Part shown: positions 16,896-40,197 of the stretch, one piece after another
How positions within the stretch are numbered: the stretch's first letter is position 1
Layout: every line of letters begins with the position of its first letter
Assembly (NCBI RefSeq): GCF_003576345.1
Contig: NZ_QWGB01000005.1
Location: forward strand, 558,001 to 622,000
Length of the DNA stretch: 64,000 nt
Direction of reading: 5' to 3'
Source: Henriciella barbarensis
GTDB lineage: Bacteria > Pseudomonadota > Alphaproteobacteria > Caulobacterales > Hyphomonadaceae
Program-made: the position numbers and the translations under genes
The notes under the pieces: model-generated
The model's input: only the letters and a program-made list of their open reading frames with translations
Told to the model about the DNA's origin: nothing
Databases searched by the model: none

Positions 16896-17741
16896 CTACA
16901 TCGCCAGGAAGCCGCCGTCGATGCGGAAGTCCGCGCCGTTGGCATAGGATGAGGCGTCCGACATCAGGAAGGCCGTCGGCCCGACATAGTCTTCGGCGAG
17001 CGCCATGCCGCGCAGGCGGTCATAGTCGCCGCCCCGGCGCAGCGGGATCTTTTTCTCGTAATTGTCGAGGAACTCGCCGTCCTGATTGTTGAAGACGCCG
17101 GCAAAGGTCAGCGTATTGGTGCGCACGCCCTTCGGCCCCCAATAGACCGCCAGATAGCGTGTGAGATTGTAGAGCGCCGACTTCGACGCGCTATAGGCGA
17201 CCGGCTTGTAGAAGGTCTCACCCCGGTCACGCCGGTACTGGTACAGCGACTGGTCAGGCGACACTGTGCCATAGATGGAGGCGACATTGGCGATGGAGCC
17301 CTTGCCCGCTTCCGCCATCGCCTTGCCGAAGACCTGGCAGCACTGGAAGACGCCCTTCACATTGACGTCCATGATCCGCTCCCAGCTCTCGGCCGGGTAA
17401 TCCTCAAAGGGCCCATTCTCTGCCGCCGTTGAGTTTGGCGGGCTGTCGAGCGCGGCATTGTTCACAAGGCCGGACGGCGTGCCGAAATGCTGGGTGATTG
17501 ACTCTAGCGCAGCCTCAAGCGAGGCGCGGTCGGTGACATCGGCCTTGAACGCCTTGATCACCTTGTCGCCGGGCCCGTCCGGAAACGCCTTGGCCGTCGC
17601 TTCATCGCTGGCATTTGGCTCGACAATGGCGACATTCGCGCCGCAGCCGACAAGGCCGTTCGCCATCGCCCGGCCAATCTGGCCATAGCCGCCGGTCACC
17701 ACAATCGTGCGCCCATACAATCCGAAAAGTTTGTCCAGCAT
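16896..17741 (-). CDS. short-chain dehydrogenase/reductase, PtmA-like
   Basis: A complete classical SDR of 281 residues: TGGYGQIG cofactor loop at 16-23, NNAA at 94-97, catalytic Ser155, Tyr183 and Lys187 (YSASK). The C-terminal half, with GVFNNQ, FLMSDASSYANGADF and a final DGG, resembles the PtmA-type dehydrogenases of legionaminic-acid/flagellin-glycan loci as I remember them. It follows the HAD phosphatase with 5 bp between, so it is probably the last gene of the NeuB-led operon. A role in making or modifying the keto-acid sugar precursor is inferred from context; substrate unknown. Confidence 0.75.
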   Translation of the reverse strand: MLDKLFGLYGRTIVVTGGYGQIGRAMANGLVGCGANVAIVEPNASDEATAKAFPDGPGDKVIKAFKADVTDRASLEAALESITQHFGTPSGLVNNAALDSPPNSTAAENGPFEDYPAESWERIMDVNVKGVFQCCQVFGKAMAEAGKGSIANVASIYGTVSPDQSLYQYRRDRGETFYKPVAYSASKSALYNLTRYLAVYWGPKGVRTNTLTFAGVFNNQDGEFLDNYEKKIPLRRGGDYDRLRGMALAEDYVGPTAFLMSDASSYANGADFRIDGGFLAM

Positions 17742-17746
17742 CTTGC

Positions 17747-18265
17747 CTATCCTTCATTGCCTTGGCGCGCCTGCGCAATCGCATCGCAGGCTTCGCGCAC
17801 CGCGCCATCTCCGCCAAGGCGCTTTGTTCTGAATGTCTCGATCGTATCGAGGACGTCGTGAGAATCGCTGACCGATATCGGCAGGTGAACCTTTTGCAGC
17901 ACACCCTTGTCATTGGTGTCATTCCCGATGAACGCCGCCTGCGCGAAGCTGAGGCCGCGTTCTTCCAGGACCTTGGTAAAAGCCGCCACCTTGTCCGGGA
18001 TATTCTGCTGACAATCGATCTTCAGCTTCTTCGCCCGCGCCGTGACGACGGGGTTTTCCTCGGTCGACATGATGAAGCAATAGACGCCGGTCGCCGCGGC
18101 CGCGCGCAGGCCATAGCCTTCGAGGCGCGAGCAGACAACGGCCTCGCGGCCATCCTCGAACACATAGACCTTGTTGTCGGTCATCACCCCGTCGAAATCG
18201 ATGCCGAGTATCTCAACATCGCGCGCCCGCGCGGCAAATTCCGGATCGTCCAGCGACCTGATCAT
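17747..18265 (-). CDS. HAD-family phosphatase, KdsC/KdnC type
   Basis: The 172-residue cap-less HAD protein has the nucleophile motif GIDFDGVMTDNK (Asp23, Asp25), a Ser/Thr motif II (IMSTEEN), Lys92 and the acidic motif GNDTNDK (Asp116, Asp119). Size and NKVYVFEDG segment fit the 3-deoxy-octulosonate-8-phosphate / KDN-9-phosphate phosphatase group. In a NeuB neighbourhood it would dephosphorylate a nonulosonate 9-phosphate before CMP activation; acting as KdsC for Kdo is the alternative. Its start overlaps the stop of the upstream KpsS-like gene by 4 bases. Confidence 0.82.
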   Translation of the reverse strand: MIRSLDDPEFAARARDVEILGIDFDGVMTDNKVYVFEDGREAVVCSRLEGYGLRAAAATGVYCFIMSTEENPVVTARAKKLKIDCQQNIPDKVAAFTKVLEERGLSFAQAAFIGNDTNDKGVLQKVHLPISVSDSHDVLDTIETFRTKRLGGDGAVREACDAIAQARQGNEG

Positions 18266-19986
18266 GGCGTCTCCCCCGCGCAGTCCCGCGCATTCTCATC
18301 ATCTATCGTTTCAAACGGCGCACCAGCAAGGATGCCCTCGCAAATCGCGTCCATATTCGGGTCGGCGTCTGGCTTGGCCAGGCTATAGGCGTCGGCATGA
18401 AGCTGCGTCAGCGGCCACCCGGCAGAGCCGTCCAGCGCTTTTAGCGGAATGCAGCGGCGGAAATAGAAATGGTACACATAGCGCCGCGCCGCTTCGATCT
18501 CGCTATCGGTCAGGGGGTCGAACGTGCCCGGGCTCTCCAGCAGGCGGAAATAGGAGTCCCGGTCATACGCATCGCGCCCGAAACCCTTGCCGCGGATCCA
18601 CGCATCCCCCGCCACCACGACAGGCATGCCGCGCGCTGACAGTTCCATGCCAAGCTTTGTGTTGAAGATCAGCGCGCCCTTGGAAAGCTGCGCAATCGAA
18701 TAGGTGTTGATGTCATTTTCTGGCGAAACCAACCGCACATTCTCCGGCATCTCCGGGAAGGCCGCACGCAGGGCATCGTCCAGCCTGTCAGACGCGCGCG
18801 GGCTGTTCATCACCTCGCCCGGATGACACCGCACCACCAGCTGGCGATCGGGGTGTTTGGCAAACCAGGACACAGTGTCGATCGCCCATTCAATCATGTG
18901 GCCATAGGCCGACTGGGCATAGTTCAGCCGCGCATCCCAGACGACATTCGCCGCCAGCAGATACGTGTCCTTGTCCGGGTCGAGATCCAGCGCAGCATAG
19001 GTCGACTGCAGGCTTTCCGGGTCTCGCCGCTGAAAGGTGATCCAGTCCTGCGCTCCGGTTTCTCGCGACGCGAGATAGGTATCGAGTTCAATCGTTTCGT
19101 CAGCGCTCAGCGCCCGCTGGTTCCAGACGCTTTCTGGCTCATCGATCATCGCGCGGTGATACGTGTCGCCATGCTGATAGATCAGCCGCCCGCGCCGATA
19201 GGCCGGATGCCATGTCACAAGGCGCGTGTCGCTATCGCGTGCCGCTTCGGCAAACTGGCCCTGCGGGACATAGATCCCATGATGGGCCACGATAACGTCA
19301 TACTTATGGGCCTCGATCAGCCTGCGCGCCGCCGCATCGGACAGCCAGGCGGCGGCCAGATAGCGGCTGAAAATCTGCGTCTCCAGATCGCTCGCCCCGA
19401 GATCGCCCTTGCCGAAGAAGCGTAGCGCCCCTGCATAGGCATGCATGACGCGTGGGTCGTCATGCTCAGTGCTGCGATGGTTTTGCCAACGCTCCCCGAA
19501 CGCTTTCGCGTCGGCACGGTCCATCTCATCCAGCACATCAGAAAACTTGCGGACATTAAGCCCAAGCGGCGCACTCACCCGGTTCGCTGCGCCTGTGCAG
19601 GCCCCGCAGAAATCAGGGCCCGGGCCTTCCTTCGCGATGCGCCGCAGACTGGGTGCTAGCGTATGCTCGATCACCTGACAGGCAGGCAGGCCGTCACAAT
19701 AGCCGATATCAACCTTTGCGCCGCGCAGCGTCAGCGCCGCCGCCATCAGCGTATCGACCGTATTTGCCGTGAAATGCAGCCCAAGGCTGGTCGCAATCAG
19801 GATGCGCTTGCCGCCCGCTTTCTCGCGCGCGGCAGCCCAGTCCTGCTCATGCCCGGAAAGCAGAGCGCGCCAGTCAGGGTAAACCCCCGGCCGGCGCGTC
19901 AGACGTTCAAGCCGCCAGCGCCGGACCGGCGCATAGGCTTCAGATTGCCTTACGGCTGTGCGTATGTCGCTGAGAAGCGAGCCCAC
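18262..19986 (-). CDS. KpsS/Capsule_synth-like protein with CxxC pair, paralogue 1
   Basis: The 574-residue protein starts at a GTG 13 bp after the NeuB gene, with an AGAGGG just ahead. The C-terminal half resembles the capsule-polysaccharide (KpsS/LipB-like, Kdo-transferase-related) fold: VVRCHPGEVM, then NTYSIAQLSKGALIFN, LGMELSARGMPVVVAG and a G-K-G-F segment. The N-terminal half holds AHHGIYVPQG and four cysteines at 97, 103, 127 and 130 (CDGLPAC, CGAC). The same four appear in the paralogue at 31548-33224, which hints at a bound metal. It may transfer an acidic keto sugar; substrate unknown. No signal peptide or membrane helix. Confidence 0.65.
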   Translation of the reverse strand: MGSLLSDIRTAVRQSEAYAPVRRWRLERLTRRPGVYPDWRALLSGHEQDWAAAREKAGGKRILIATSLGLHFTANTVDTLMAAALTLRGAKVDIGYCDGLPACQVIEHTLAPSLRRIAKEGPGPDFCGACTGAANRVSAPLGLNVRKFSDVLDEMDRADAKAFGERWQNHRSTEHDDPRVMHAYAGALRFFGKGDLGASDLETQIFSRYLAAAWLSDAAARRLIEAHKYDVIVAHHGIYVPQGQFAEAARDSDTRLVTWHPAYRRGRLIYQHGDTYHRAMIDEPESVWNQRALSADETIELDTYLASRETGAQDWITFQRRDPESLQSTYAALDLDPDKDTYLLAANVVWDARLNYAQSAYGHMIEWAIDTVSWFAKHPDRQLVVRCHPGEVMNSPRASDRLDDALRAAFPEMPENVRLVSPENDINTYSIAQLSKGALIFNTKLGMELSARGMPVVVAGDAWIRGKGFGRDAYDRDSYFRLLESPGTFDPLTDSEIEAARRYVYHFYFRRCIPLKALDGSAGWPLTQLHADAYSLAKPDADPNMDAICEGILAGAPFETIDDENARDCAGETP

Positions 19987-19999
19987 ACCCTCTTACCAA

Positions 20000-21088
20000 T
20001 CAGGCTTTGAGGGCTTCGTTCGCAGCAGCTTCCGTCAGGCCGATGTCTTCAAAGGTGAAGGGCTGGTCATCGGCAACGGCCTTGGTCAGCGTCTTGCCGA
20101 CGAAGACGTCCTGGAAGTAAGGCGCAATGCCGTCACCTGGCGACTTCAGCGCAATATCAGCTTCGGTGATCGTGTGACCGGCTGGCAGATCGCTCGTTGC
20201 GCAGAGCTTCTTGCCCATCTTGATCAGTGGGGCGTGCTCGGAGTCGTAGGTGCGCTTCACACCATCGCCGAGCGCGGCGCGGGCGCGCTGCAGGTCACGG
20301 ACGAGACGGCGCAGGCCGTTTGGCTCCAGCGAGAATGCCTGGTCGGTGCCTTTCCAGGCACGGTTCAGCGTGAAGTGCTTCTCCAGGACGCGGGCGCCGC
20401 ACATATAGCCGAGCATGGCCATGGCGATACCGCTATCGTGGCTGGAGAAACCAATCGGAATCTCGGGGAACTTCTCGCGATAGGTCTCGATGACGCGGAT
20501 GTTCAGCTCTTCAAAGGTCGGCGGATAGCCCGAGGTGCACTGCATGATGCAGATGTTCGGATTGATCGGCATGATCTCGTCATAGACGCGCTGCACGTCT
20601 TCGATCGACGCGCCGCCGGTCGAAATGAACATCGGCTTGCCGAACTTCGCGATGTACTTGATCTGCGGCAGCGTCTTCAGGTCGCCAGAGGCGATCTTGT
20701 AGGCCGGCATGTCGAGGTCTTCGAGGAAGTCCGCGCTCTTATAGTCCCAAGCGGTGGAGAAAAGCGTGATGCCGATTTTCTTGGCATGGTCGCGCAGCTC
20801 GATCCACTCGTCGCGGTCGAACTCGAGCATTTCACGGTGCGCGCCATATGTCGCCGCGTATGCGTTCTCGGAGTTGTACGGCTGGTTGTAGTATTCCTTG
20901 GTGTAAAGCGAGCGATTGTCGCGCTTCTGGAGCTTTACCGAATGCGCGCCTGCAGCTTTCGCCGCATCGAACAGGTCCTTACATTTCTGGACGTCGCCTT
21001 CATGGTTCTGGCCAATCTCGGCGATGACGTACATGTCGTCATTGTCGCTGATCTTGATTCCGTCCACGACCATTTCACGATTAGCCAT
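20000..21088 (-). CDS. NeuB-family nonulosonate synthase (sialic/KDN/legionaminic-type)
   Basis: The 362-residue protein has the NeuB TIM barrel (about 15-275) with VIAEIGQNHEGD, HSVKLQKRDNRSLYT, STAWD, YKIASGDL, FISTGGAS, LQCTSGYP-like MQCTSGYPP, IGFSSHD and EKHFTLNR, and a C-terminal antifreeze-like SAF domain (about 290-355). It condenses phosphoenolpyruvate with a six-carbon sugar to give a nine-carbon 3-deoxy-2-keto acid. Because a KdsC/KdnC-type phosphatase follows, a phosphorylated acceptor such as Man-6-P (KDN route) or ManNAc-6-P is possible. I do not see the UDP-sugar C4/C6 enzymes of the legionaminate or pseudaminate routes nearby. A GAGGG precedes the ATG. It probably heads the operon down to 16896. 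Confidence 0.85.
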   Translation of the reverse strand: MANREMVVDGIKISDNDDMYVIAEIGQNHEGDVQKCKDLFDAAKAAGAHSVKLQKRDNRSLYTKEYYNQPYNSENAYAATYGAHREMLEFDRDEWIELRDHAKKIGITLFSTAWDYKSADFLEDLDMPAYKIASGDLKTLPQIKYIAKFGKPMFISTGGASIEDVQRVYDEIMPINPNICIMQCTSGYPPTFEELNIRVIETYREKFPEIPIGFSSHDSGIAMAMLGYMCGARVLEKHFTLNRAWKGTDQAFSLEPNGLRRLVRDLQRARAALGDGVKRTYDSEHAPLIKMGKKLCATSDLPAGHTITEADIALKSPGDGIAPYFQDVFVGKTLTKAVADDQPFTFEDIGLTEAAANEALKA

Positions 21089-21211: not shown

Positions 21212-22453
21212 TTAGATCAGTGAACCTGTTGTGACACTCCTCCAGCCTGTGCCGTCGCTGAATATTACACCCGCCCCGGCAGGCAGGTCCGGGACGAAAT
21301 AAAGGGCGCCTGCTCCGGCGTCCGACGCGCTCGGAAGGCTCGCAATCGCCGCGCTGCCCAGCCTTACGGCCCCGGCCACATGCAGGGCACAGCTCGGCGA
21401 AGTCGTGCCAATACCGACCCGGCCAGCCGATGTAATCCGCACTCGCTCATTCACGCCGCCATTGCCCGTCCAGAAGCCAAGCGACATGGGCACGTCGGTC
21501 CCGGAAACAGGCCCATCCACTTGCGCGTTGACCAGCGCGCTCTGGACCCAGTTATCCCCAGCCGCAAATCCGCGAAAGGAGAAGCCGCCGCACCAGTCGC
21601 CTGACTGGACCGGAAGCGGCACATCGAGCGTCCCGCGCGCCCGCTTCTGGATAGAGAAGGATGAATAAGTCGCCGGGTTGGCATAGGTGTCGAGGCTGGC
21701 GGTTGCGAAATAGCCATCCCTCACCACGCTCAAGGTTGATTGATCGTTCGTTGCAGCGGTCTGGTCGATCACGGATAGCCGCCCCGTCGGCGGCCCGCCT
21801 ACGCCAACGTTTGCCGTTGCTGTGTCGACACTAAGTGCTGTGTCGAATGAGGTGCCATCATCACTGGTGCGAAGCTCGAACCCGCCATTCGCTGCAAGAC
21901 CAAACTCTGCCTCCCCAGTAAAACCAGTCTGGAAGACGACCGACGCGACCCTGGTGTCATCTGCCCGGTTGATGATTTTGCGTGCATCGCCCGTCCCCGG
22001 CGTCACATCATCATGGGTCAACAGTTCGGCATCGCTGCGAACCGTCAGCCTGTTGGCAATATCGGCCTCGGAATTGATACCCAGCGTCTCGACAGGCCCG
22101 CTCGCTGTGCCCTGCACGGCTTCCCAACCTTCGCCGGTCAGCACAAAGAGAGACGCCTCGTCTTCTATCCAGGCAAGCCAGCCCTCGCGCGGCGCGATCT
22201 CGATCCAGGCGCCATCCTGAAAGCTCGCCACCGCCCCATCTGCCATGAAGTCCCAGTCATCGCCGGTCTTTTCAGATGGCAGGATGTAGGATGTCGCCGC
22301 CAAGGGCGCTGCGGGCTGGGCCGCTTCGCTCCGGCTCACGACGCTGAGCTGCACGACCGCGTCCAGCCGCCGCAGGCTTTCATTCAGGGTGACATGCTTC
22401 ATCGCCTGATTGGCGGCGAGGTATGAAAGGCCGATACGGGGGGTCTGGTCCAT
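21212..22453 (-). CDS. DUF2793-type protein with tail-fibre-like C-terminus
   Basis: Start taken at the ATG at 22453 (413 residues), preceded by CCGGAG; an in-frame TTG at 22468 overlaps that site. Residues 1-110 match the DUF2793 pattern as I know it from alphaproteobacterial phage and gene-transfer-agent loci: PRIGLSYLAANQAMKHVTLN and DDWDFMADGAVASFQDGAW. The rest is Gly/Ser/Thr/Ala-rich with a RVGIGTTSPSCALHVAG element like those in phage tail fibres and surface adhesins. No signal peptide. It stands alone among glycan genes with no other phage genes nearby. Possibly a secreted or surface-attached fibre that binds the polysaccharide; function unknown. Confidence 0.6.
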   Translation of the reverse strand: MDQTPRIGLSYLAANQAMKHVTLNESLRRLDAVVQLSVVSRSEAAQPAAPLAATSYILPSEKTGDDWDFMADGAVASFQDGAWIEIAPREGWLAWIEDEASLFVLTGEGWEAVQGTASGPVETLGINSEADIANRLTVRSDAELLTHDDVTPGTGDARKIINRADDTRVASVVFQTGFTGEAEFGLAANGGFELRTSDDGTSFDTALSVDTATANVGVGGPPTGRLSVIDQTAATNDQSTLSVVRDGYFATASLDTYANPATYSSFSIQKRARGTLDVPLPVQSGDWCGGFSFRGFAAGDNWVQSALVNAQVDGPVSGTDVPMSLGFWTGNGGVNERVRITSAGRVGIGTTSPSCALHVAGAVRLGSAAIASLPSASDAGAGALYFVPDLPAGAGVIFSDGTGWRSVTTGSLI

Positions 22454-22516
22454 CTGGGGCTCCGGCAATTGACTGGAGCGGTGAACCTAGTCGTGCACCT
22501 TATAAGGTCTGAAAGT

Positions 22517-24312: not shown

Positions 24313-24331
24313 TCAATTATTCCCATAGTTT

Positions 24332-26166: not shown

Positions 26167-26880
26167 CTATTTCCGCCAATAGTCCTCGCGGCGCGGCTCT
26201 TCAATCTGTAGCGGTTCAAATCCGGGAACGCTGACCGCATCATGGGTCAAAAGCCAGATACCACGGCGCGGATGACGGGTTTCAAGATCCCGGAAGTCAT
26301 CATGCTCGACGGGCAGTTTGCACTCATAAACGTTGCTGAAGCCTGCCGCCCACATACCGCGCTCAAGCGCAGCACGGCTCAGGATCATCGCGAGCGGCTG
26401 GATACCTTGCGTCGCGTTGGGGTTCTCACGGGCGACACGCCCGATGAAATCGCCATCCGGCACGATCATGGTTTCCAGAAGCATTGCCTTACCGGCCATC
26501 GCCCCCATCATGCGGAGCGCGCGAAGCGGGTTTTCGAGATGATAGAGAATACCGAAAGACAAGGCGAAATCGCGCGGCGCCAAGGCATCGGACGTTGCGC
26601 AATTGTCGAAATCGAACACGCTGAAGTCACAGCCGGGCGCCCGTCTTCGACCGACCTCCGCAACTTCCTGGCGCCCTTCAAGCGCCATCACGTTCAGGTC
26701 TGAATGGTTAAGACGCTTGGCAAACCAGCCCGGCCCTGCCCCGAAGTCATAAGCGGTTTCCAGCGTCATGCCAGATGAGCGCAAGGCTTTCAGAACCTTA
26801 TCGGCGATGGCCCAACGTGCCTCATTGATGGCGATGTAATTGTCTACATCAAACAGCGCAGTTGCAGGCACCTGGCTCAT
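26167..26880 (-). CDS. class I SAM-dependent methyltransferase
   Basis: A 237-residue Rossmann methyltransferase: YDFGAGPGWFAKRL (motif I, about residues 43-56), NVMALEGRQE (acidic end of strand 2), and FALSFGILYHLENPLRAL (motif IV region). Resembles the DUF1698/Methyltransf-type proteins found with exporter genes. The start overlaps the Wzt stop by 4 bases, so it is coupled to the ABC exporter. It could cap or decorate the chain; in some ABC-exported O antigens a methyl or phosphomethyl terminator is read by the Wzt C-terminal domain. Confidence 0.75.
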   Translation of the reverse strand: MSQVPATALFDVDNYIAINEARWAIADKVLKALRSSGMTLETAYDFGAGPGWFAKRLNHSDLNVMALEGRQEVAEVGRRRAPGCDFSVFDFDNCATSDALAPRDFALSFGILYHLENPLRALRMMGAMAGKAMLLETMIVPDGDFIGRVARENPNATQGIQPLAMILSRAALERGMWAAGFSNVYECKLPVEHDDFRDLETRHPRRGIWLLTHDAVSVPGFEPLQIEEPRREDYWRK

Positions 26881-30759: not shown

Positions 30760-31461
30760 ATGCGCGGCGCACTGTACCCGGATGATCACGCGTTCGCGGA
30801 AGGTCTTGTTTACCCAAAAGTCGCTTCACTGAGCGAAGCTGCGGGCCACATCCCCGACAATGAAGCCGATGCTCAGCGCCTTCTGGACGTGTGGACGCGT
30901 TTCTCGAAGGGCGCTGTCCTGGATGACAACGTCAAACTCGGCATCAAGGCGCGCCTGATCAATGGCGGAGCGCCAGAAAACGTCCGCATACATGGCCCGA
31001 CCGCGATCCGCGGAATCCTGAAGGCCGAAGGCGACGCAACCATCCACATCGGCAAATACACCTATGTTGGCGACGACACGATCCTGTCGGCGTCGCAATC
31101 GATCACAATTGGCCAGGCAACCCTGCTGGCGCACGGCGTTCAGCTGTTCGACAATGACTCGCACCCGACCCATGCCGATCAAAGGGAAATCCAGTTCCGC
31201 CGCATGCTAGGCGACAAACGGGTCGCAATTCCCCTCGAAATCCGATCAAAGCCGATTTCTATTGGCAGCCGCTGCTGGATCGGCCTGGGGAGCGCCGTGA
31301 TGAAAGGCGTCACGATCGGTGACGATACAGTGGTCGCGGCCCAGTCAGTCGTCACGAGCGACCTGCCCGCAGGCGTCGTGGCCGCAGGAAATCCCGCAAA
31401 GGTTGTCAGGGAGCTCAGACCAGACGAGCGACTGCCCACACCTAACCCGCCCGGCGGCTGA
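30760..31461 (+). CDS. hexapeptide-repeat acyltransferase
   Basis: The 233-residue protein shows left-handed beta-helix hexapeptide repeats from about residue 70 to the end (IHIGKYTYVGDDTIL, ITIGQATLLAHGV, ISIGSRCWIGLGSAVMKGV, VTIGDDTVVAAQSVV) and the usual VVAAGNPAKVVREL close. FDNDSHPT contains the His expected to be catalytic. This is the maltose/galactoside O-acetyltransferase-like (LbH-MAT) group. It is first in a seven-gene plus-strand run, with GAGGGAGA before the ATG, and probably O-acetylates a sugar of the exported glycan. Confidence 0.82.
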   Translation: MRGALYPDDHAFAEGLVYPKVASLSEAAGHIPDNEADAQRLLDVWTRFSKGAVLDDNVKLGIKARLINGGAPENVRIHGPTAIRGILKAEGDATIHIGKYTYVGDDTILSASQSITIGQATLLAHGVQLFDNDSHPTHADQREIQFRRMLGDKRVAIPLEIRSKPISIGSRCWIGLGSAVMKGVTIGDDTVVAAQSVVTSDLPAGVVAAGNPAKVVRELRPDERLPTPNPPGG

Positions 31462-31547: not shown

Positions 31548-33224
31548 ATGTCCTCGAAACTGAAAATGCCGCCACGCTTCAAAGGCGCCACCAAGCCTTT
31601 CACCCCTGAGAAAGGGTTTGCGTCGTGGCCAGACCTGATCACCGCGTCGAATGGCCAGTGGGAAGCTGATGTGAAGTCAGCCGCAGGTCCGCGCGTCCTG
31701 ATCGGGTCCAATACCGGCATGCATGGCGCGGTGACCAATCTTGATGGCGTACTTGCTGCCGGCCTTACAAAGGCGGGCGCTCAAGTGGGCCGCGTTTTCT
31801 GCGACGGCTCCATGCCGGCCTGTCTCATGCCGACCTATAGCGACGCGACACCGCCAGACATGATCGCCGAGTTCGGCCTGGTGAACCGCCTCTGCAAGGC
31901 CTGTTTCAATCGCGGCACCAACAATCATCGCCCAATGGGCCTGCCTGAGTTTCGCTATTCCGACTATTTGAAACCTGAAGACTTCAGCGAAGCACAATCA
32001 CTTGCGGCGAGCGTCGACCTGTCCGCCCTGTCAGAATGGACGCTGGACGACATCGCGGTCGGCGAACACGCGCTGGCTGGCGCGCTTCGCTACTATGCGA
32101 CAGGCGACCTTGAAGGACAGCCGCGCGCAGAAGAGGTGCAGCGCCGCTATCTTGAGGGCGCGATCCTCACCAAGCGCGTCTATGAGCGCATCATCGCGGC
32201 CTGGAAGCCAGAAGTCTGCGTGCTCCATCATGGCATCTACAGCCCGCAAGGCATTGCCGCCGATGTCTGCCGCAAGGCTGGCGTCCGCGTGGTGACCTGG
32301 GTCGTCGCCTACCGGAAGAACTGTTTCATCTTCAGCCATGACGACACCTATCATCACACCATGATGAGCGAGCCGGTCGAGACATGGGAAGAGCTCGACA
32401 TGTCAGAAGCGGTCCGCGACGAAGTGCGCGCTTATCTGGAAAGCCGGGCCAGCGGCGGTAAGGACTGGATCTATTTTCACGAAGAACCGGATTCGGACTT
32501 CAAATCCTTTGCCGAGAAGAAGGGCATCGACCTTTCAAAGCCTGTCGTCTCTATGCTGACCAACGTCATGTGGGACGCTCAGCTGCATTATCCGGCCAAT
32601 GCCTTTCCGGGCATGAAGGACTGGATCATCGATTCGATCCGCTACTTCATCGACCGGCCAGATCTGGAAGTCGTCATCCGTGTTCACCCTGCCGAAGTGC
32701 GCGGTGCGATCCCGTCCCGCCAGCGCGTTGTGGACGAAGTGAAGAAGGCTTTTCCGGACCTGCCGCGCCATATCCACATCATCGAACCCGATGAGGATGC
32801 GAGCACCTATGCGCTGGCACACGCCTCCAACGCGGTCATCATCTATGGCACCAAGATGGGCACAGAGCTCACACCGCTCGGCAAGCCTGTCATCGTGGCC
32901 GGTGAAGCGTGGATCCGCAACAAGGGCGTGACGCAGGACGCCAGCGACAAGCCGCATTACTTCAAGCTGCTGAACCAGCTTCCGGCCGCACCGGGCCAGT
33001 GGGCCCCGGACCGCGAGCGCGCGCTGCGCTATGCGTATCATTTCTTCTTCCGCCGGATGATCCCGCTGCCTTTCCTGCAGCCAAACGGGACAGGCGCCAT
33101 GTTCGACATCGAAGTGCCAAGCGTCGATGACCTCGCCCCCGGCAAATGGCCGGGACTGGACACTATAACTCAGGGCATCCTCACCGGCGCCCCCTTTGTC
33201 TTCAACGCAGAGCACCAGGGATAG
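31548..33224 (+). CDS. KpsS/Capsule_synth-like protein with CxxC pair, paralogue 2
   Basis: A 558-residue paralogue of the protein at 18262-19986 along its full length. Shared features: four cysteines (85, 92, 116, 119: CDGSMPAC and CKAC), LHHGIYSPQG, VVIRVHPAEVRG, ASTYALAHASNAVIIYG, MGTELTPLGKPVIVAGEAWIRNKG and the YAYHFFFRRMIPL end segment. The C-terminal half is KpsS-like. Having two copies, one in each half of the locus, suggests two successive transfers of similar residues or two acceptors. Cytoplasmic, no membrane helix. Glycosyltransferase activity is inferred from the fold only. Confidence 0.65.
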   Translation: MSSKLKMPPRFKGATKPFTPEKGFASWPDLITASNGQWEADVKSAAGPRVLIGSNTGMHGAVTNLDGVLAAGLTKAGAQVGRVFCDGSMPACLMPTYSDATPPDMIAEFGLVNRLCKACFNRGTNNHRPMGLPEFRYSDYLKPEDFSEAQSLAASVDLSALSEWTLDDIAVGEHALAGALRYYATGDLEGQPRAEEVQRRYLEGAILTKRVYERIIAAWKPEVCVLHHGIYSPQGIAADVCRKAGVRVVTWVVAYRKNCFIFSHDDTYHHTMMSEPVETWEELDMSEAVRDEVRAYLESRASGGKDWIYFHEEPDSDFKSFAEKKGIDLSKPVVSMLTNVMWDAQLHYPANAFPGMKDWIIDSIRYFIDRPDLEVVIRVHPAEVRGAIPSRQRVVDEVKKAFPDLPRHIHIIEPDEDASTYALAHASNAVIIYGTKMGTELTPLGKPVIVAGEAWIRNKGVTQDASDKPHYFKLLNQLPAAPGQWAPDRERALRYAYHFFFRRMIPLPFLQPNGTGAMFDIEVPSVDDLAPGKWPGLDTITQGILTGAPFVFNAEHQG

Positions 33225-33232
33225 GATTCCTA

Positions 33233-34759
33233 ATGAGCTTCAGGGTACCTTTGTTCGTCGACCAGGCGATCCGCTTCGTCCGGCGCAATTTGCCCAAGCG
33301 CAAGTTCCAGCCCCGCGATGGCATCGAGAGCGAGTCATGCTCTGCCAAGATGCTAAAGCTCTCAAGGTTCAAGAACGGCGTCGCGATACATCGCCCGGAA
33401 GACAAGAGCGAACAGGAGCAATTGCTCAACCCGTTTGGGGACCCGTGGATCTCACGAGAGGCGCACAATCCGTACATCCCGACCATGACGGGCTCGCTGA
33501 TCGCCTTCCTGAACTCCAAGGTCGGCAAGATGGGAACGCCTCTACGTGGCGGCCCGGAAGTCACACACGCCTATACTCGCTATTCCGGCTACTCGGCCAG
33601 CAATTATCACTATGATGAGAGCGTCTGTAAGCTGACGATGAAGATGCCCGCCTTCGAGAAGATGCGGGAAGTCTTCAAGCGAAAGGGGCTGAACAAGCGC
33701 TTCATCGGCTATGCCGTTCTGAACTATGACGACGGCTACCTTTTCGGCCCGAATGCAGGCCTTCCTGAAGAATATTACGTCCACAATCCGGACGGAAGTC
33801 TCGAGCCGAAGCACCGCCTGAAATTTGTCGAAGGCCCTGCGCTCGATGCTGAAGGCTGCGTTTTCGATATTCGCAGACCAGAGGTGCGTGCGGCACTTTG
33901 CAATCGCGTCCTCGAAATCATGGTTGCCAATGAGATCGATGCCGTCCTGATCGATTACGCCGTCCGCCGCTATGGTTTCGGCGCGCCGAGCCTCATCTTC
34001 GACATGCCGAAAGACTGGTTCCCGAACTTTCAGGAGAACCAGATACTGTTGTTCCGCGAACTCCATGCGCTGCTCAAGGAGAATGGAAAAACACTTTTCC
34101 TGAACGGCACGATGCTCGACAGCATCCTCGTCACCGAGCCGCAGCTGGTGCGCCAGTATCTCAAAATATCAGACGGCATGTTCTGGGAGCAGCCTTTCCG
34201 CTGGGAATGGCGCAACTATGAACGCGACGGCATCGACTATTATGACCGCCTGCAGCAGTTCTTCGACAATTCTCACGTCATGAAGAAACAGCTCATCGTG
34301 AAGTCCGGCACCTACCGGTTTCATGGCACCGAAGACAAGATTTCAGGCTGGACCAAACGCTTCCAGATGACAGATGCCGGTATCGAGCGTCATCTGGCTG
34401 AATATCTGACCTGCTTCTTCATGCTGTATGCGAACAGGCATTTCGACGTCCTGTTCCATACGCATCCGGCGAAGTTCTTCGATATCTACACGAGCGAAGC
34501 CTATTTCGACATCTGGTCCAAACGGGTCGGTCAGGGCGTCACAAAGCGCGTGCGCTATTCGAAGCATGTGCACATGCGCGAGTTCGAGAATGCCTTTGTC
34601 TTCGTGAACAATACGCTGGACCCGCTCGATCTCGATCCATCCGTGGTCGAGGGCGAATTCTCGCAACCGATACCGGCGATCACGCTGGAGCCGCTCTCCG
34701 GCAAGATCGTCATGAAGGACGAGCTTGCGGCAATTGAAGGCGGCGCAGCCACCAATTGA
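33233..34759 (+). CDS. putative cytoplasmic glycoside-hydrolase-like TIM-barrel protein
   Basis: I start at the ATG at 33233 (508 residues), 8 bp after the KpsS-like gene and behind AGGGATAGGA. I do not recognise a named family with confidence. The middle (about 200-400) looks like a TIM barrel of the hypothetical glycosidase group: FDIRRPEVRAALCNRVLEI, then VLIDYAVRRYG and TLFLNGTMLDS; the end contains FVFVNNTLDPLDLDP, like the short beta domain following such barrels. There is no signal peptide, which is unusual for a hydrolase; it may trim or edit glycan intermediates inside the cell, or be a non-hydrolytic relative. Confidence 0.45.
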   Translation: MSFRVPLFVDQAIRFVRRNLPKRKFQPRDGIESESCSAKMLKLSRFKNGVAIHRPEDKSEQEQLLNPFGDPWISREAHNPYIPTMTGSLIAFLNSKVGKMGTPLRGGPEVTHAYTRYSGYSASNYHYDESVCKLTMKMPAFEKMREVFKRKGLNKRFIGYAVLNYDDGYLFGPNAGLPEEYYVHNPDGSLEPKHRLKFVEGPALDAEGCVFDIRRPEVRAALCNRVLEIMVANEIDAVLIDYAVRRYGFGAPSLIFDMPKDWFPNFQENQILLFRELHALLKENGKTLFLNGTMLDSILVTEPQLVRQYLKISDGMFWEQPFRWEWRNYERDGIDYYDRLQQFFDNSHVMKKQLIVKSGTYRFHGTEDKISGWTKRFQMTDAGIERHLAEYLTCFFMLYANRHFDVLFHTHPAKFFDIYTSEAYFDIWSKRVGQGVTKRVRYSKHVHMREFENAFVFVNNTLDPLDLDPSVVEGEFSQPIPAITLEPLSGKIVMKDELAAIEGGAATN

Positions 34760-34841: not shown

Positions 34842-36305
34842 TTGCTGGACACATTCGATCCGCAGAACGTGAAATCCCTGATCAATGGAGAGGCCGTTTC
34901 CAGTCAGACCACGTCTGACATCCTCAGCCCCCACACCGGACAGCCGATCGCCAAGCTGCACCATGGCGGCGCAGACGAAGTCGAGAAGGCCGTCGCTGCC
35001 GCAAAGGCTGCGCAGAAAGCCTGGGCCGATACGCCCGCTGTCCAGCGCGGACAGATCCTGCACGCCGCCTGCAATTTGATCGAAGCACGCGCCGAAGAAC
35101 TTTCGAAGATCGTCGCTGAAGAAGCTGGCAAGCCGCTCTCGGCGGCGATGGGTGAGACGACCGGCTCTGTCATGTGCGGCCGCTTCTATGCTGGCGAAGG
35201 CCAGCGCCTTTTCGGGCGCACCATGCCGTCCGGCGCGCCGAACAAGTCCTGCATGACGGTCCGCCAGCCTTGCGGTGTTGCGGCCCTGATTGCCGCCGCC
35301 AACACCCCGGCCCCGAACTTTGCCTGGAAGGTTTTCCCGGCCCTCATCTGCGGCAATGCCGTCGTGCTGAAGCCTGCGGAAGATACCCCGCTTTCGGCTG
35401 ACTGGATGGCCCGCGCGCTTATCGAAGCAGGTGTGCCTGCAGGCGTGATGAACGTCGTTCAGGGCCTCGGCCAGGAAGTCGGCCCTCCGCTGACCGCTCA
35501 TAAGGACGTTGACGTCATCTCGTTCACCGGCTCGACCCGTGTCGGCCGCGAGATCGCCGGCAAGGCAGGCGCGGACCTCAAGAAAGTCTCGCTGGAGCTT
35601 GGCGGCAAGAACGCTTTCATCGTCTGCGATGATGCCGACATCGAAAAGGCCGTCCACTGGGCCTCTCTCTCTGCCTTCTCCAATGCGGGCCAGCGCTGCG
35701 CGTCGGGCAGCCGCTTCATCGTCATGGACGCCGTCTATGACAAGTTCGTAGGCGCCTTCGTTGCCAAGGCAAACTCCCTCAAGGCCGGTGTTGGCGACGA
35801 TTGTGAGCTTGGCCCGGTCATCAATGAGCGCCAGCTGAACAACATGCTGAGCGCCATTGAGCGCGCCAAGGGCGAAGGCGCCAAGGTGCTTTGCGGCGGC
35901 GAGCGTATAGACGGCGACCTTTCAGGCGGCTTCTACCTGCAGGCGACACTGATCGAAGGCTCTCCGGCGGACTCCCACCTTTCGACCACAGAGCTCTTCG
36001 GCCCGGTCGGCGCGATCTACAAGGTTTCGAGCTTTGAAGAGGCCGTCGCCCTTGCCAATGACAGCCCATACGGCCTCACCGGCACCATCCACACGACAAG
36101 CTGGGACCGCGCCTGGACGTTCACGAAAGAGCTCAGCACCGGTGTCGCTGTCGTCAATGCAGGTACGTTCGGCTCAGAGCCGCACATGCCATTCGGTGGG
36201 CTTCGGGCGTCTGGTAATGGCACGCGGGAGCCGGGCACCGAAGCGCTGGACGTCTACACAGAGCTGAAAGACATCTACCTCATCACCGAACCGGGACGGC
36301 TCTAG
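34842..36305 (+). CDS. NAD(P)-dependent aldehyde dehydrogenase
   Basis: A 487-residue ALDH. It starts at TTG 34842 because AGGAG lies at 34831-34835 and no ATG or GTG fits. Catalytic residues are in place: Asn154, Lys177 (VVLKPAE), Glu252 (LELGGKN) and the nucleophile Cys286 (GQRCASGS), with FTGSTRVGREIA before. It oxidises an aldehyde to an acid. Four bp upstream of the NeuA-like gene and followed by transketolase, it is probably part of sugar synthesis, for example oxidising an aldehyde group of a sugar or the transketolase product. Substrate unknown. Confidence 0.85.
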   Translation: MLDTFDPQNVKSLINGEAVSSQTTSDILSPHTGQPIAKLHHGGADEVEKAVAAAKAAQKAWADTPAVQRGQILHAACNLIEARAEELSKIVAEEAGKPLSAAMGETTGSVMCGRFYAGEGQRLFGRTMPSGAPNKSCMTVRQPCGVAALIAAANTPAPNFAWKVFPALICGNAVVLKPAEDTPLSADWMARALIEAGVPAGVMNVVQGLGQEVGPPLTAHKDVDVISFTGSTRVGREIAGKAGADLKKVSLELGGKNAFIVCDDADIEKAVHWASLSAFSNAGQRCASGSRFIVMDAVYDKFVGAFVAKANSLKAGVGDDCELGPVINERQLNNMLSAIERAKGEGAKVLCGGERIDGDLSGGFYLQATLIEGSPADSHLSTTELFGPVGAIYKVSSFEEAVALANDSPYGLTGTIHTTSWDRAWTFTKELSTGVAVVNAGTFGSEPHMPFGGLRASGNGTREPGTEALDVYTELKDIYLITEPGRL

Positions 36306-36309
36306 GCTC

Positions 36310-37077
36310 ATGACAACGGCGTCTTCCCCCAGCTGTATCGCGCTCATCCCGGCTCGCTCTGGCTCAAAGCGCGTGCCGCACAAGAATATTGCGCCGCTCA
36401 TGGGCCACCCGCTGATCGCCTATACGATCGCGGCGGCCAAGCAGTCAGGTGTGTTTGGGCGGGTCATCGTCTCCACCGACTCCCATGATTATGCGAAAGT
36501 CGCCCGCCACTATGGCGCGGAGACGCCCTTCATGCGCCCGCCGGAATTTTCTGGCGACAAGTCCCCCGACATTGACTGGATCCAGCATGCGCTGCGCTGG
36601 TTTGCAGACCAGGGCGAAGCCTATGACGCGTTCGCCCTGCTGCGCCCGACCAGTCCGTGCCGCCTGCCATCGACCATCCAGCGCGCCTGGGACCAGTTCA
36701 CCCGCCAGGAAGGCGTCGACAGCCTTCGCGCGGTAGAGCCCTGCGCCCAGCATCCCGGCAAGATGTGGGTCGTGCGGGGTGAGCGGATGCACCCGCTCAT
36801 GCCGATGCAGCCGGAAGAGATCACGCCGTACCACTCAACCCAGTATCCAGGCCTGCCGCGCGTCTATGCCCAGAATGCGAGCCTTGAGATTGCCTGGTCG
36901 CGCGTCGCGCTGGAAGCTGGCACGATCGCTGGCGAGGTGCTGACGCCTTTCCTGACTTCGGGGTCGGAAGGTCTTGACGTGAACTCCCCGCGTGACTGGC
37001 GCCTCCTTGAAATGATGGTCGAGGATGGCGAAGCCGAACTGCCGAAAATCGAACAACCCGCCTGGCAAGGCGACTGA
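36310..37077 (+). CDS. neuA: acylneuraminate (CMP-nonulosonate) cytidylyltransferase
   Basis: The 255-residue protein starts ALIPARSGSKRVPHKNI (about residue 13), the CTP-binding loop of CMP-sialate synthetases, followed by VIVSTDSHDYAKVA, LLRPTSPCRLPSTI and VYAQNASLEIAW. It joins CMP to the anomeric hydroxyl of a 3-deoxy-2-keto acid. It likely activates the NeuB product. Distinct from the KdsB-like protein at 43742. Start ATG 36310; in one transcript with ALDH (4 bp) and transketolase (25 bp). The NeuA name is for the family; sugar specificity is not known. Confidence 0.82.
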   Translation: MTTASSPSCIALIPARSGSKRVPHKNIAPLMGHPLIAYTIAAAKQSGVFGRVIVSTDSHDYAKVARHYGAETPFMRPPEFSGDKSPDIDWIQHALRWFADQGEAYDAFALLRPTSPCRLPSTIQRAWDQFTRQEGVDSLRAVEPCAQHPGKMWVVRGERMHPLMPMQPEEITPYHSTQYPGLPRVYAQNASLEIAWSRVALEAGTIAGEVLTPFLTSGSEGLDVNSPRDWRLLEMMVEDGEAELPKIEQPAWQGD

Positions 37078-37102
37078 ACCGAAAATCTGAGGATACGACC
37101 CC

Positions 37103-39016
37103 ATGGGTGACCTGATTACCGAAGCCGTCTCCGGCACACTTTATTACCTCGACAAGCCGGCCTTTGCGCGCGTGCAGGAGTGCAATGCTTCCGCAGAGCA
37201 GCGCACCAGCCTCTTTGCCGACATGGCGCGCCTCAACACGCTCTACATGATCGCAAATGCAGGCTCCGGCCATATCGGCTCCAGCTTCTCGAGCATGGAT
37301 GTGGTCGCCTGGCTCTATCTCAATGAGATGAAGGGCGAGGATCTCTACTTCTCTTCCAAGGGCCATGACGCGCCCGGCCTTTATGCCGTGCTGACCGCGC
37401 TCGACGTGCTGCCGTTCGACAGTATCCACAAACTTCGCAAGATTGACGGCCTGCCGGGTCACCCGGATGTCGGCGTTGCGGGCATGGTTACCAATACCGG
37501 CTCGCTCGGCATGGGTATTTCGAAGGCCAAAGGCATGGCGTTTGCCAACCGGATGCTGGACAAGCCAGCGCGCATCTATGTGATGACGGGCGACGGTGAG
37601 CTGCAGGAAGGTCAGATCTGGGAATCGCTGATCTCTGCTGCAAACAACGGCGACTCCGAAGTCACCGTCATCGTTGACCACAACAAGATCCAGTCGGACT
37701 ATTCGGTGGAACGCACCTCCAGCCTCGGTGACCTGGAAGCGAAATTCAACTCCTTCGGCTGGCACACCCAGAGCATCGATGGACACGACATCGACGCCAT
37801 GCGCGACGCTCTCACTGCGGCCCGTCAGGACGAGAAGCGCCCAAGCGTGATCATTGCGAACACGATCAAGGGCAAGGGCGTGAGCTTCATGGAAGGCGTC
37901 TCGGTCGACAGCGACGTCGAGCGCTTCCAGTTCCACTCCGGCGCTCCGCAGGCCGAAGACTATACCCTCGGCGCGCAGGAGCTTATTTCCCGCATCCTCG
38001 ACGGCCACAAGGCCGCTGGCCTGCCAGAGCCTGAATTCGAAACAATCGAGCGCCCTGCTGCGCCGCAGGGCGGCAACCCGGTCAAGCTGTTCCCGTCCTA
38101 TACGGCAGCGCTGCTGGACCAGGCAAAACGCAATGACAAGCTGGTCGCCCTCGATGCAGACCTTGTTCTCGACATGGGTCTCGAGCCTTTCCGCGATACA
38201 CATCCTGACCGCTTCGTCGAATGCGGTATCGCAGAGATGGACATGGTCAGCCAGGCTGGCGGCATGGCACTTAAGGGCCTCCTGCCTGTCGTGCACTCTT
38301 TCTCCTGCTTCCTGTCGACCCGTCCGAACGAGCAGATCTACAACAATGCCACCGAGCACACGAAAATCGTCTATGTCGGCGGCCTTTCCGGCGCGCTTCC
38401 GGGCGGCCCGGGCCACTCCCACCAGTCGGTGCGCGAGATTTCAGCCCTCGGCTCTATCCCGAAAATGGCGATGGTCGAACCGGCCCACCCGGATGAGGTC
38501 GCCCCGCTGCTCGACTGGTGCCTGAACACGCATGACGGTCCGTCCTTCCTGCGCCTTGTCTCCATTCCTTATGAGACCGCCTATGAAGCGGATGCCAGCT
38601 GGACCCCGGCCGCAGGTCAGGGCCGTGTCGCGCGCAAGGGTGATGGCAGCGCCGTCCTCATCGCGTCCGGCCTCGTCGGCACCGCGCAGGCCCTCAAGGC
38701 TGCAGACCGTCTTGCCGGTGAGGGCGTCGACGCCACTGTCATCTCCCTGCCCTTCCTCAACATCGTGGATGGCGAATGGCTGGCGAAGACGATTGGCGAT
38801 GCGAAGCTCGTTGCGACAATCGATAACCATTATCGCCGCTATGGTCAGGGCGATGCTGTCGCGACCGCGCTTGCCGAAGCAGGCGCGCTGTCAGGTTGCA
38901 AATTCGTCCGCCTCGGCCTCGACCTGACCCCGCCATCCGGCACCAATGATCAGGTGCTGAAAGCGGTTGGCCTCGATGACGAAACCATCGCAGCAGCGGT
39001 ACAAGCCGTGCTCTAG
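37103..39016 (+). CDS. transketolase, full length
   Basis: All three transketolase domains are in one 637-residue chain: TPP domain (about 30-300) with His57, SSKGHDAPG, LPGHPDVG, and GDGELQEGQIWES to Asn194; pyrimidine domain (about 315-480) with ECGIAEMDMVSQAGGMA; C-terminal domain to the end. It moves two-carbon ketol units between sugar phosphates. The gene order ALDH-NeuA-TK and strong coupling suggest a dedicated role in an unusual keto sugar. It lacks the close look of the housekeeping Calvin/pentose-pathway enzyme (for example the typical YFSSKGH replaces the LSxGH motif). A shared housekeeping function cannot be ruled out. Confidence 0.85.
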   Translation: MGDLITEAVSGTLYYLDKPAFARVQECNASAEQRTSLFADMARLNTLYMIANAGSGHIGSSFSSMDVVAWLYLNEMKGEDLYFSSKGHDAPGLYAVLTALDVLPFDSIHKLRKIDGLPGHPDVGVAGMVTNTGSLGMGISKAKGMAFANRMLDKPARIYVMTGDGELQEGQIWESLISAANNGDSEVTVIVDHNKIQSDYSVERTSSLGDLEAKFNSFGWHTQSIDGHDIDAMRDALTAARQDEKRPSVIIANTIKGKGVSFMEGVSVDSDVERFQFHSGAPQAEDYTLGAQELISRILDGHKAAGLPEPEFETIERPAAPQGGNPVKLFPSYTAALLDQAKRNDKLVALDADLVLDMGLEPFRDTHPDRFVECGIAEMDMVSQAGGMALKGLLPVVHSFSCFLSTRPNEQIYNNATEHTKIVYVGGLSGALPGGPGHSHQSVREISALGSIPKMAMVEPAHPDEVAPLLDWCLNTHDGPSFLRLVSIPYETAYEADASWTPAAGQGRVARKGDGSAVLIASGLVGTAQALKAADRLAGEGVDATVISLPFLNIVDGEWLAKTIGDAKLVATIDNHYRRYGQGDAVATALAEAGALSGCKFVRLGLDLTPPSGTNDQVLKAVGLDDETIAAAVQAVL

Positions 39017-39117
39017 GTCTTTTCACTGATGCCCGGCCGGTCTCTCTCGCAGAGACCGGCTGGACGTCCGGCTTCCCGCAAACCATGATCTGGCTTGCCT
39101 GACTGGAGTAGCAGACC

Positions 39118-40197
39118 TTGGTTGCCGCATCGCCTTTCCGCGCCAGCGTCATCATCGTGAACTATAATGGCGGCGAGCTTATCCAGTCCGCCATCGACCA
39201 CCTGAAACAACAGACGCTGAAACCACTCGAAGTGCTGGTGGTGGACAATGCCTCGAGCGATGGCTCTGCCGACCGGCTGGATCTCTCTGGCCTCGATGGC
39301 GCCCGCCTCATGCGCATGGATGACAATCTTGGTTTTGCAGGCGGCAACAATGTCGCCGCGAAGGAAGCGGCCGGCGACTGGCTCATCCTGCTTAATCCCG
39401 ACACCGAACCGCATGCCGACTGGATCGAAACGCTGGCCGATGCCACGCAGCGCTATCCGAACGTGACCCAGTTTGCGAGCGCCCAGTTCGACGCTGAAGA
39501 CCCGAACCGTCTTGATGGGACGGGTGACTGTTATTCGGTCTTCGGCTTTCCATGGCGCGGCGGCTTCGGCGCGAAGGCGAGCGACCTTCCAGAAGAAGGC
39601 GAGTGCTTCTCGCCCTGCGGCGCCACGGCCATGATCCGCAAGGATATCTTCCTTGGCGCGGACGGTTTCGATGAGAGCTTCTTCTGCTATTGCGAGGATG
39701 TCGATCTTGGCTATCGCCTCCGCCTTGCGGGCGAGCGGTGCATCTTCGTGCCGCGTGCCATCGTGCGCCATCATGGCAGCGCCATTACGGGCCTTCGCAG
39801 TGATTTCACCGTCCGCCAGGGAACGCGCAACCGCCTGACCACCTATCTGAAGAACACGCCGCTCCTTCTGCTCATTGCGAGCATGCCGGGGCATATCCTG
39901 TTGACACTTTATCTCTATGTCTCAGCCCTCGGAAAGCCGCGCGCAAAGTCGATCCGGCGGGGCCTGTCCGAAGCATTTGGCCGGTTTGGCGATACGATGA
40001 AGGCCCGCCGAAAAGTGCAGCGCGAGAAGAAGCTCTCCAGCTGGCAGATTTCCCGCGCCATGCACTGGAGCCCGATTACGCTCAGCCGCCGTCGCCCGCA
40101 TGTCTGGCGCGCGCGCCGCTATCCAGCGCCGGGCACCAGCCTTTCAGGCGATGCCAGAAACCCGACGGACAAGCCTTCCGCTCCGTCAACGCACTAG
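39118..40197 (+). CDS. family 2 glycosyltransferase, rhamnosyltransferase (WbbL)-like
   Basis: Starts at TTG 39118 with GGAG nine bases upstream; no nearer ATG. The 359-residue protein has ASVIIVNYNGGELIQSAI, VLVVDNASSDGSADRL, GFAGGNNVAAKEA, LLNPDTEPHADW (metal-binding DTE) and GFDESFFCYCEDVDLGYRL, the WbbL/RfbF pattern found in rhamnosyl-like transferases. After residue 255 a hydrophobic segment (LLLLIASMPGHILLTLYLYV) could touch the membrane. dTDP-rhamnose made in the window is a plausible donor. It ends tail-to-tail with the next gene at a shared CTAG (40194-40197). Confidence 0.8.
   Translation: MVAASPFRASVIIVNYNGGELIQSAIDHLKQQTLKPLEVLVVDNASSDGSADRLDLSGLDGARLMRMDDNLGFAGGNNVAAKEAAGDWLILLNPDTEPHADWIETLADATQRYPNVTQFASAQFDAEDPNRLDGTGDCYSVFGFPWRGGFGAKASDLPEEGECFSPCGATAMIRKDIFLGADGFDESFFCYCEDVDLGYRLRLAGERCIFVPRAIVRHHGSAITGLRSDFTVRQGTRNRLTTYLKNTPLLLLIASMPGHILLTLYLYVSALGKPRAKSIRRGLSEAFGRFGDTMKARRKVQREKKLSSWQISRAMHWSPITLSRRRPHVWRARRYPAPGTSLSGDARNPTDKPSAPSTH

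Follow-up and report, generated by a model that had tools for sequence, protein, structure and literature searches.

A probable CMP-ulosonate gene cluster with its own transketolase in Henriciella barbarensis, its relatives in bacteria and phages, and a possible route of side-chain trimming

Gene content and conservation of the cluster

The subject of this study is a 64-kb stretch, here called the window, of the 3.33 Mb, 14-contig genome of Henriciella barbarensis, which carries a gene cluster for a putative ulosonic acid activated with cytidine monophosphate (CMP). Fifty open reading frames (ORFs) of the window were scanned with Pfam, and NCBIfam was also used. Genes for a NeuB-family synthase, a phosphatase of the haloacid dehalogenase (HAD) superfamily and a short-chain dehydrogenase/reductase (SDR) lie to the left of the Wzm/Wzt exporter genes, and those for an aldehyde dehydrogenase (ALDH), a cytidylyltransferase (CMPT) and a complete transketolase (TKT) lie to the right, with gaps of 4 bp between ALDH and CMPT and 25 bp between CMPT and TKT (Table 1). 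This agrees with a preliminary description made from the DNA letters, which had also seen none of the UDP-sugar enzymes of the classical routes. Neither an aminotransferase nor a hydrolysing 2-epimerase nor a sialate-type acetyltransferase was recognised within 16896-40197, where one hexapeptide acyltransferase-like gene is present.

Using CMPT as the query against genome contigs, 50 loci were obtained (G and L numbers below denote genomes and loci or viral contigs). In a Hellea metagenome-assembled genome (MAG; L016) the genes form a single run, NeuB-glycosyltransferase (GT)-HAD-SDR-ALDH-CMPT-TKT. The order is the same in L014 (also G096; L014/L077), with ~0.8 kb ahead of TKT, and L076 (G063) has the full set with one additional ORF between SDR and ALDH. 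The Henriciella break point lies between SDR and ALDH, and the two halves are on opposite strands with the exporter between them; the Henriciella cluster is a split operon, probably divided by rearrangement. The other Henriciella loci (L011-L013, L079) show the right half, the retrieved flank ending before NeuB, and a 5.2 kb contig (L015/L078) holds ALDH-CMPT-TKT only. The window CMPT shares 98% identity with proteins from Henriciella algicola, H. marina and a Henriciella MAG. ALDH matches (E 1e-8) were found in 6/50 CMPT loci, L011-L016 only, and all six also have TKT.

Four genomes from four different families group these genes, in full or in part, in other orders. G132 has GT-TKT-CMPT-ALDH followed by SDR-HAD, with a NeuB orthologue (63% identity) ~200 kb off. 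G808 has a NeuB-HAD-SDR-ALDH-CMPT operon, and at a distance of ~18 kb on that contig TKT-GT is accompanied by Wzm/Wzt homologues and a further KpsC-like GT. NeuB-SDR-CMPT-TKT is found in G384, with a general HAD_2 gene close by, and NeuB-(one other ORF)-SDR-TKT in G401. On a megaplasmid of Streptomyces sp. NBC_01237 (L081) the order is NeuB (47%)-SDR (41%)-TKT (49%). Since the genes form a single run in L014/L077 and L016 and are grouped in G132, G808, G384 and G401, each from another family, their linkage is not chance.

TKT is an accessory gene, not a housekeeping one. A second transketolase (a 657 aa frame, C11:1026797 onward) is encoded in the genome, together with a DXS-like match on contig C7. 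TKT matches at E 1e-100 were obtained in 9/105 genomes of the family, our own included, and 96/105 had no match; in the phylum sample 5/398 matched at E 1e-110, again with our own. In the class sample (385 genomes, threshold E 1e-70, three candidates scored per genome) 5/385 matched, and setting aside G334 (32%, split) left four clade members including H. barbarensis. The second transketolase and the accessory distribution rule out TKT as the sole housekeeping copy, the transketolase part of an outcome that the preliminary description had named as fatal to its proposal. NeuB was matched at E 1e-50 in 50/385 genomes of the class sample, the fifth-ranked genome scoring 471 bits and the sixth 207; five genomes were at least 61% identical and all others at most 39%. 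All four TKT-clade genomes, from four families, fall among these five, for which the random chance would be 5/C(385,4), or ~6e-9 (hand calculation, kinship uncorrected).

Because of this conserved linkage and co-occurrence, we consider it very probable that the genes, TKT among them, serve one dedicated CMP-ulosonate pathway, and the earlier proposal of a single pathway of this kind is strongly supported. A transketolase is not known to take part in any pathway to a sialic-acid-like sugar. No report of one within nonulosonic or CMP-ulosonate biosynthesis was found in the open-licence literature searched, and the cluster represents a real, conserved and, within that literature, apparently undescribed variant of CMP-ulosonate biosynthesis with a dedicated transketolase. 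In PMC12342839, a transketolase and a nonulosonic cluster appear as separate matters.

Table 1. Features of the cluster in the window
Feature	Position	Strand	Evidence and proposed role
SDR	16896-17741	-	Pfam adh_short_C2, E 3.5e-40; proposed ulosonic acid C8 dehydrogenase
KdsC-type HAD phosphatase	17747-18265	-	two NCBIfam matches under cut-off, to KdsC (E 1.5e-30) and the KDN-9-P phosphatase (E 6.8e-22); no Pfam match; proposed to remove the 9-phosphate from the NeuB product
GT (U574), KpsC-like candidate ulosonate transferase	18262-19986	-	AlphaFold model and Foldseek; no match in Pfam or NCBIfam; paralogue of 31548-33224
NeuB-family synthase, TKT-linked clade	20000-21088	-	PF03102, E 4e-73, and SAF domain
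Wzt exporter ATPase	26877-28229	-	Pfam ABC_tran; Wzt_C match below cut-off
Wzm exporter permease	28226-29062	-	Pfam ABC2_membrane
Hexapeptide acyltransferase-like gene	30760-31461		
Second KpsC-like GT (Capsule_synth)	31548-33224	+	PF05159, E 8.7e-07; 34% identical to U574
ALDH	34842-36305	+	PF00171, E 8e-155; proposed C7-aldehyde oxidation
CMPT, NeuA/PseF-like CMP-ulosonate cytidylyltransferase	36310-37077	+	PF02348, E 8.7e-22; PseF match under cut-off, E 1.1e-39; PDB NeuA 9ftb, E 1.9e-26
TKT, dedicated transketolase	37103-39016	+	637 aa; all three transketolase Pfam domains

The transketolase and its partner enzymes

When TKT was aligned to human TKT, the active-site His residues, the GDG...N motif and the catalytic Glu were found to be retained. 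Residues R318, S345, H416 and R474 of the human enzyme, which we take to clamp the substrate phosphate, align to F330, D357, L428 and S487 of the window protein; the R318 column is reliable only against human TKT and not against the housekeeping TKT of the same genome. The S345, H416 and R474 columns read D, L and S in 10/10 bacterial clade members aligned (window, L014, L016, L073, L074, L075, L076, L078, L081 and L089), whereas S, H and R stand there in the housekeeping TKT. Four viral members have D, then L, M or F, then C or a gap at these columns. In the bacterial members P stands at the column of D424, and GPGHSHQ takes the place of GEDGP. Thus the thiamine diphosphate motif and the active-site His and Glu are shared with the human and E. 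coli transketolases, whereas the phosphate clamp and the GEDGP motif are gone. The positions mutated in the engineered E. coli transketolase S385Y/D469T/R520Q (5hht), a variant used with non-phosphorylated substrates, match D357, P436 and S487 of the window protein. As far as the alignment can tell, the loss of the clamp argues for a non-phosphorylated substrate.

IMG/VR was scanned three times for the NeuB or TKT clade. TKT of this clade was found on nine viral contigs, L104, L105, L106, L107, L119, L132, L133, L134 (cut) and L174, with SDR and CMPT in 9/9 and NeuB in 8/9. As L106/L107 and L133/L134 are near copies, seven contigs are distinct. The operon of L104 lies between the genes for the terminase large subunit and the portal, and portal genes follow the operon in L107 and L119 (three of the nine annotated). 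The viral TKTs are ~370-440 aa long without the C-terminal domain, and the model of the L106 protein (pLDDT 71) matches the human TKT structure with E 2.7e-22. An FkbM methyltransferase gene mostly stands next after the SDR-CMPT-TKT set of the phages. Other viral contigs (L108-L118, L120-L126 and repeats) have split transketolases that scored ~50-160 bits, compared with 214-757 for the clade, and these were excluded as another family on their low scores.

The viral NeuB scan gave 39 contigs, none of them with ALDH, and the 31 that extend 4.5 kb past NeuB were judged with thresholds of our own setting. Six have NeuB, CMPT, SDR and TKT, eight NeuB, CMPT and SDR, 13 NeuB and CMPT, one NeuB, CMPT and HAD, two NeuB and SDR, and one NeuB alone. 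TKT was therefore present in 6/16 contigs with SDR and in 0/15 without it. Taken with the bacterial loci, the gene sets look nested, NeuB and CMPT being joined by SDR, then TKT, then ALDH, which suggests an order in which the enzymes act. In a NeuB tree of 74 rows, in which many forks are weak, eight of nine bacterial TKT members form one group (support 85/85) that includes G308 but not G808, and most Chloroflexi rows are set apart. The viral TKT members are intermixed with SDR-only members, as if TKT had been gained or lost several times.

The cluster has NeuB, a KdsC-type HAD and a NeuA-like CMPT in common with the Kdn/Neu5Ac 9-phosphate route, in which SDR, TKT and ALDH have no known place. 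All three proteins nevertheless fall below the cut-offs of the named NCBIfam equivalogs: NeuB scored 264 bits against the N-acetylneuraminate synthase model TIGR03569 (cut-off 399.65) and 224 against PseI (340), CMPT 136 against PseF (206), and HAD 78 against the KDN-9-P phosphatase (180) and 106 against KdsC (208). PDB sequence matches of HAD were 3mmz and KdsC chains. CMPT matches KdsB models over residues 8-82 only, below cut-off. It was excluded as KdsB by a separate KdsB gene (43742-44557), and Kdo is thus served by its own CMP synthetase. The complete dehydratase-aminotransferase-acetyltransferase-hydrolase set for pseudaminic (Pse) or legionaminic acid was not recognised in the cluster, which shows of it only a gene of the GalE-like epimerase/dehydratase fold and the hexapeptide gene; the rest of the genome was not searched for it. 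Arg314 of Neisseria NeuB, which we take to lie near the N-acetyl group of the substrate, is replaced by Ser in the window protein and in six other TKT-linked NeuBs (L014, L016, L074, L075, L076 and L081; G132 and G808 were outside the alignment). Since HAD is present, NanE was searched for and is absent from the genome, GDP-mannose genes lie in the window and Arg314 is changed to Ser, a Kdn-like start appears to fit, on indirect grounds. The preliminary description had named a Kdn-like route as well.

The SDR matches the gluconate 5-dehydrogenase and KduD models only distantly, with scores far short of both cut-offs. It is conserved beside NeuB, CMPT and TKT, and motifs of the TKT-linked SDRs recur in Chloroflexi SDRs that accompany CMPT and NeuB but no TKT. 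For ALDH, a member of a broad family, the best NCBIfam model was 2,5-dioxovalerate dehydrogenase, below cut-off. The AlphaFold model of U574 (pLDDT 84.9) has chains of KpsC, a Kdo transferase, as its top five Foldseek matches (E 2.6e-07 to 3.7e-07), narrowly ahead of other GT-B proteins (from 5e-07); identity to KpsC is ~13%, with a TM of 0.33 on the query and 0.54 on the target. Homologues of the second KpsC-like GT adjoin TKT in G132 and G808, and distant U574 relatives (20-21% identity) occur in many Chloroflexi loci.

A partial parallel exists in Acinetobacter. According to PMC12053666, EpaA (CTP_transf_3 domain) and EpaB (adh_short_C2) turn Pse into its C8 epimer, as shown by nuclear magnetic resonance, and epaA/epaB are borne by Caudoviricetes prophages. 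AciE, an adh_short_C2 SDR, and ElaABC also modify nonulosonic acids in this genus, according to PMC9676051 and PMC12053666. Shared with our cluster are an adh_short_C2 SDR (EpaB, AciE), a CTP_transf_3 protein (EpaA) and a change at C8. EpaA/EpaB epimerise C8, whereas TKT and often ALDH are added here, and the likeness is one of Pfam family. Of 36 phage records with an SDR match, the two Acinetobacter phage matches inspected sit among aromatic-degradation genes and do not resemble epaB. A further SDR match lies at 84998-85597 of MH319754.1 (Marine virus AG-345-L05, 149 kb), with 37% identity to the window SDR and E 9e-34. The window SDR had earlier been likened to PtmA, whose function is not settled by passages of PMC4481668 and PMC13130089.

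A possible route to a trimmed ulosonic acid, and its alternatives

The gene content, linkage, co-occurrence and active-site residues described above could be explained by the following route, of which we infer every chemical step. Both the nested gene sets and the lost phosphate clamp favour remodelling of the ulosonic acid itself over the earlier idea of an unusual acceptor built or oxidised by TKT and ALDH. NeuB would couple phosphoenolpyruvate (PEP) with a hexose 6-phosphate, most likely mannose 6-phosphate, to give Kdn 9-phosphate or a close relative, and HAD would take off the phosphate. CMPT would form the CMP sugar before or after the steps of SDR, TKT and ALDH. The SDR may oxidise the exocyclic C8 hydroxyl, producing a HOCH2-CO-CHOH- ketose end. 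By our own Fischer reasoning, the HOCH2-CO-CHOH-CHOH end of 8-keto Kdn or Neu5Ac would have the C1-C4 configuration of D-fructose (D-threo), and D-threo ketose ends of the D-fructose type are normal transketolase donors. TKT could then remove C8-C9 as a glycolaldehyde unit and leave a C7 aldehyde on the ring, which ALDH, in the lineages that have it, would oxidise to a carboxylate, the product being a 3-deoxy-hept-2-ulosaric acid (a C7 diacid). The KpsC-like transferases would add this diacid to a surface glycan exported by Wzm/Wzt. The predicted end point is an aldehyde where ALDH is missing and a keto sugar where TKT is missing. Legionaminic and pseudaminic acids would be unsuitable, having no 9-OH. 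The proposed product is of the same class as Dha, the 3-deoxy-D-lyxo-hept-2-ulosaric acid of plant rhamnogalacturonan II; Dha is D-lyxo, whereas the product predicted from Kdn would, by our reasoning, be L-arabino. We assign this whole explanation a probability of roughly 0.4.

In a broader and still tentative form, SDR and a phosphate-independent transketolase may remove two carbons from the glycerol side chain of a nonulosonic acid, with ALDH capping the product as an acid in some lineages. This would be an enzymatic counterpart of periodate trimming, and the module would be common to alphaproteobacteria, an actinomycete and tailed phages, in the last perhaps altering a host surface sugar or the phages' own particles. 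If so, thiamine diphosphate-dependent side-chain cleavage would be a new type of reaction in nonulosonic acid biosynthesis, the products would belong to a new class of CMP sugars, and the phages would be carriers of a four-gene CMP-sugar pathway. The presence of SDR, TKT and ALDH in NeuB clusters would then predict how far the side chain is processed.

Several observations weigh against this route. The C2 unit has no known acceptor, and the enzymes are known from sequence only. The SDR falls far under every named subfamily cut-off shown, and it need not serve TKT, for most Chloroflexi loci have SDR and CMPT with NeuB and neither TKT nor ALDH. G308 (L127), an exception to the co-occurrence, has NeuB (62%)-SDR-CMPT-GT and no TKT was found, which points either to loss of the gene or to a keto sugar as end product. 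At E 1e-90, G384 and G401 gave no ALDH match, so the diacid cannot be the common product. G401 and Streptomyces have no adjacent CMPT, and no CMPT, HAD or ALDH match was obtained at E 0.01 in the 15 kb flanks of the Streptomyces genes. The NeuB of G808 is only 40% identical to that of the window, and the TKT of viral contig L119 has a gap at one active-site His. Most phages with NeuB and CMPT only form their own branch in the NeuB tree, which weakens the evidence for an order of the pathway. The split viral transketolases have an SDR match with L108, L111, L112 and L124 and none with the others, so that the nesting is confined to the present TKT clade. Finally, one Epimerase_2 gene elsewhere in the genome might allow a start derived from ManNAc.

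Transketolase chemistry is reversible, and the same enzymes could elongate or branch the sugar. TKT would then transfer a C2 (hydroxyacetyl) unit, with hydroxypyruvate for instance as the donor, to an ulosonic or precursor aldehyde, and SDR would reduce the resulting ketone. Clamp loss is compatible with a non-phosphorylated acceptor, and loci without ALDH exist. However, if TKT acted before SDR, SDR would be expected to depend on TKT, and the opposite was observed: SDR occurs without TKT in 10/31 judged viral contigs (8 with CMPT, 2 without), in G308 and in Chloroflexi, whereas TKT of the clade occurs only with SDR. The source of the required aldehyde is not evident either, and such elongation seems unlikely. 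TKT might instead shorten or extend a ketose upstream, so that NeuB condenses an unusual aldose with PEP. The adjacency of NeuB, SDR and TKT in Streptomyces and the distinctness of the NeuB clade speak for this supply of an aldose, but NeuB of related clades is common in phages without TKT (25/31 judged contigs), G308 retains NeuB-SDR-CMPT-GT with no TKT found, and the sugar-phosphate clamp is lost, which makes it quite unlikely.

Side-chain cleavage might also proceed as proposed while ALDH converts the released glycolaldehyde to glycolate, which would leave the sugar as a C7 aldehyde or the corresponding hydrate. The breadth of the ALDH family, the TKT genomes without this ALDH and the lack of a known C2 acceptor speak for such a role; yet the best ALDH models concern keto-acid semialdehydes (2,5-dioxovalerate), though below cut-off, and we regard it as improbable. 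That a standard sialate-type pathway merely has a housekeeping TKT and an ALDH nearby is hardly credible. NeuB, HAD and NeuA-like genes are common, as are the TKT and ALDH families, but the class-sample co-occurrence already contradicts this explanation, as do the separate transketolase in the genome, the accessory distribution of TKT, its altered active site and the linkage in several families and phages. Oxidation at C8 followed by removal of C8-C9 is thus the reading we prefer.

Neighbouring genes and related loci

The cluster also holds other glycosyltransferases, methyltransferases and a gene of the GalE-like epimerase/dehydratase fold, and dTDP-rhamnose, GDP-mannose/GDP-fucose and KdsD-family genes occur elsewhere in the window, as does KdsB. 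A DUF2793 gene (21212-22468), of a family known from phages, stands between NeuB and a GT. Another gene (33146-34759), with a weak GHL15 match below cut-off, lies between the second KpsC-like GT and ALDH and is present too in L011-L013 and L079. CysNC-like, PAPS-reductase-family and sulfotransferase-like genes flank the cluster (40750-43607 and 9173-10252 of the window), and from these genes a sulfate modification of the glycan is possible.

The Chloroflexi loci L017-L030 contain SDR and a CMPT that is often fused with HAD, and in most cases also NeuB and a distant GT relative. L026 additionally has an ATP sulfurylase-APS kinase and a sulfotransferase, which suggests a sulfated ulosonic acid glycan. 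A phosphonate or O-methyl phosphoramidate route had been considered from the Chloroflexi CysC matches and was rejected for L026 only, since its CysC is fused to ATP sulfurylase with a sulfotransferase near, so that sulfate activation is likelier. The Streptomyces genes have P450, O-methyltransferase, AMP-binding, glyoxalase-family and aminotransferase genes as neighbours, read as hydroxyphenylglycine/nonribosomal peptide synthetase-like, and the locus perhaps makes a natural product that carries an uncommon sugar or an acid resembling a sugar.

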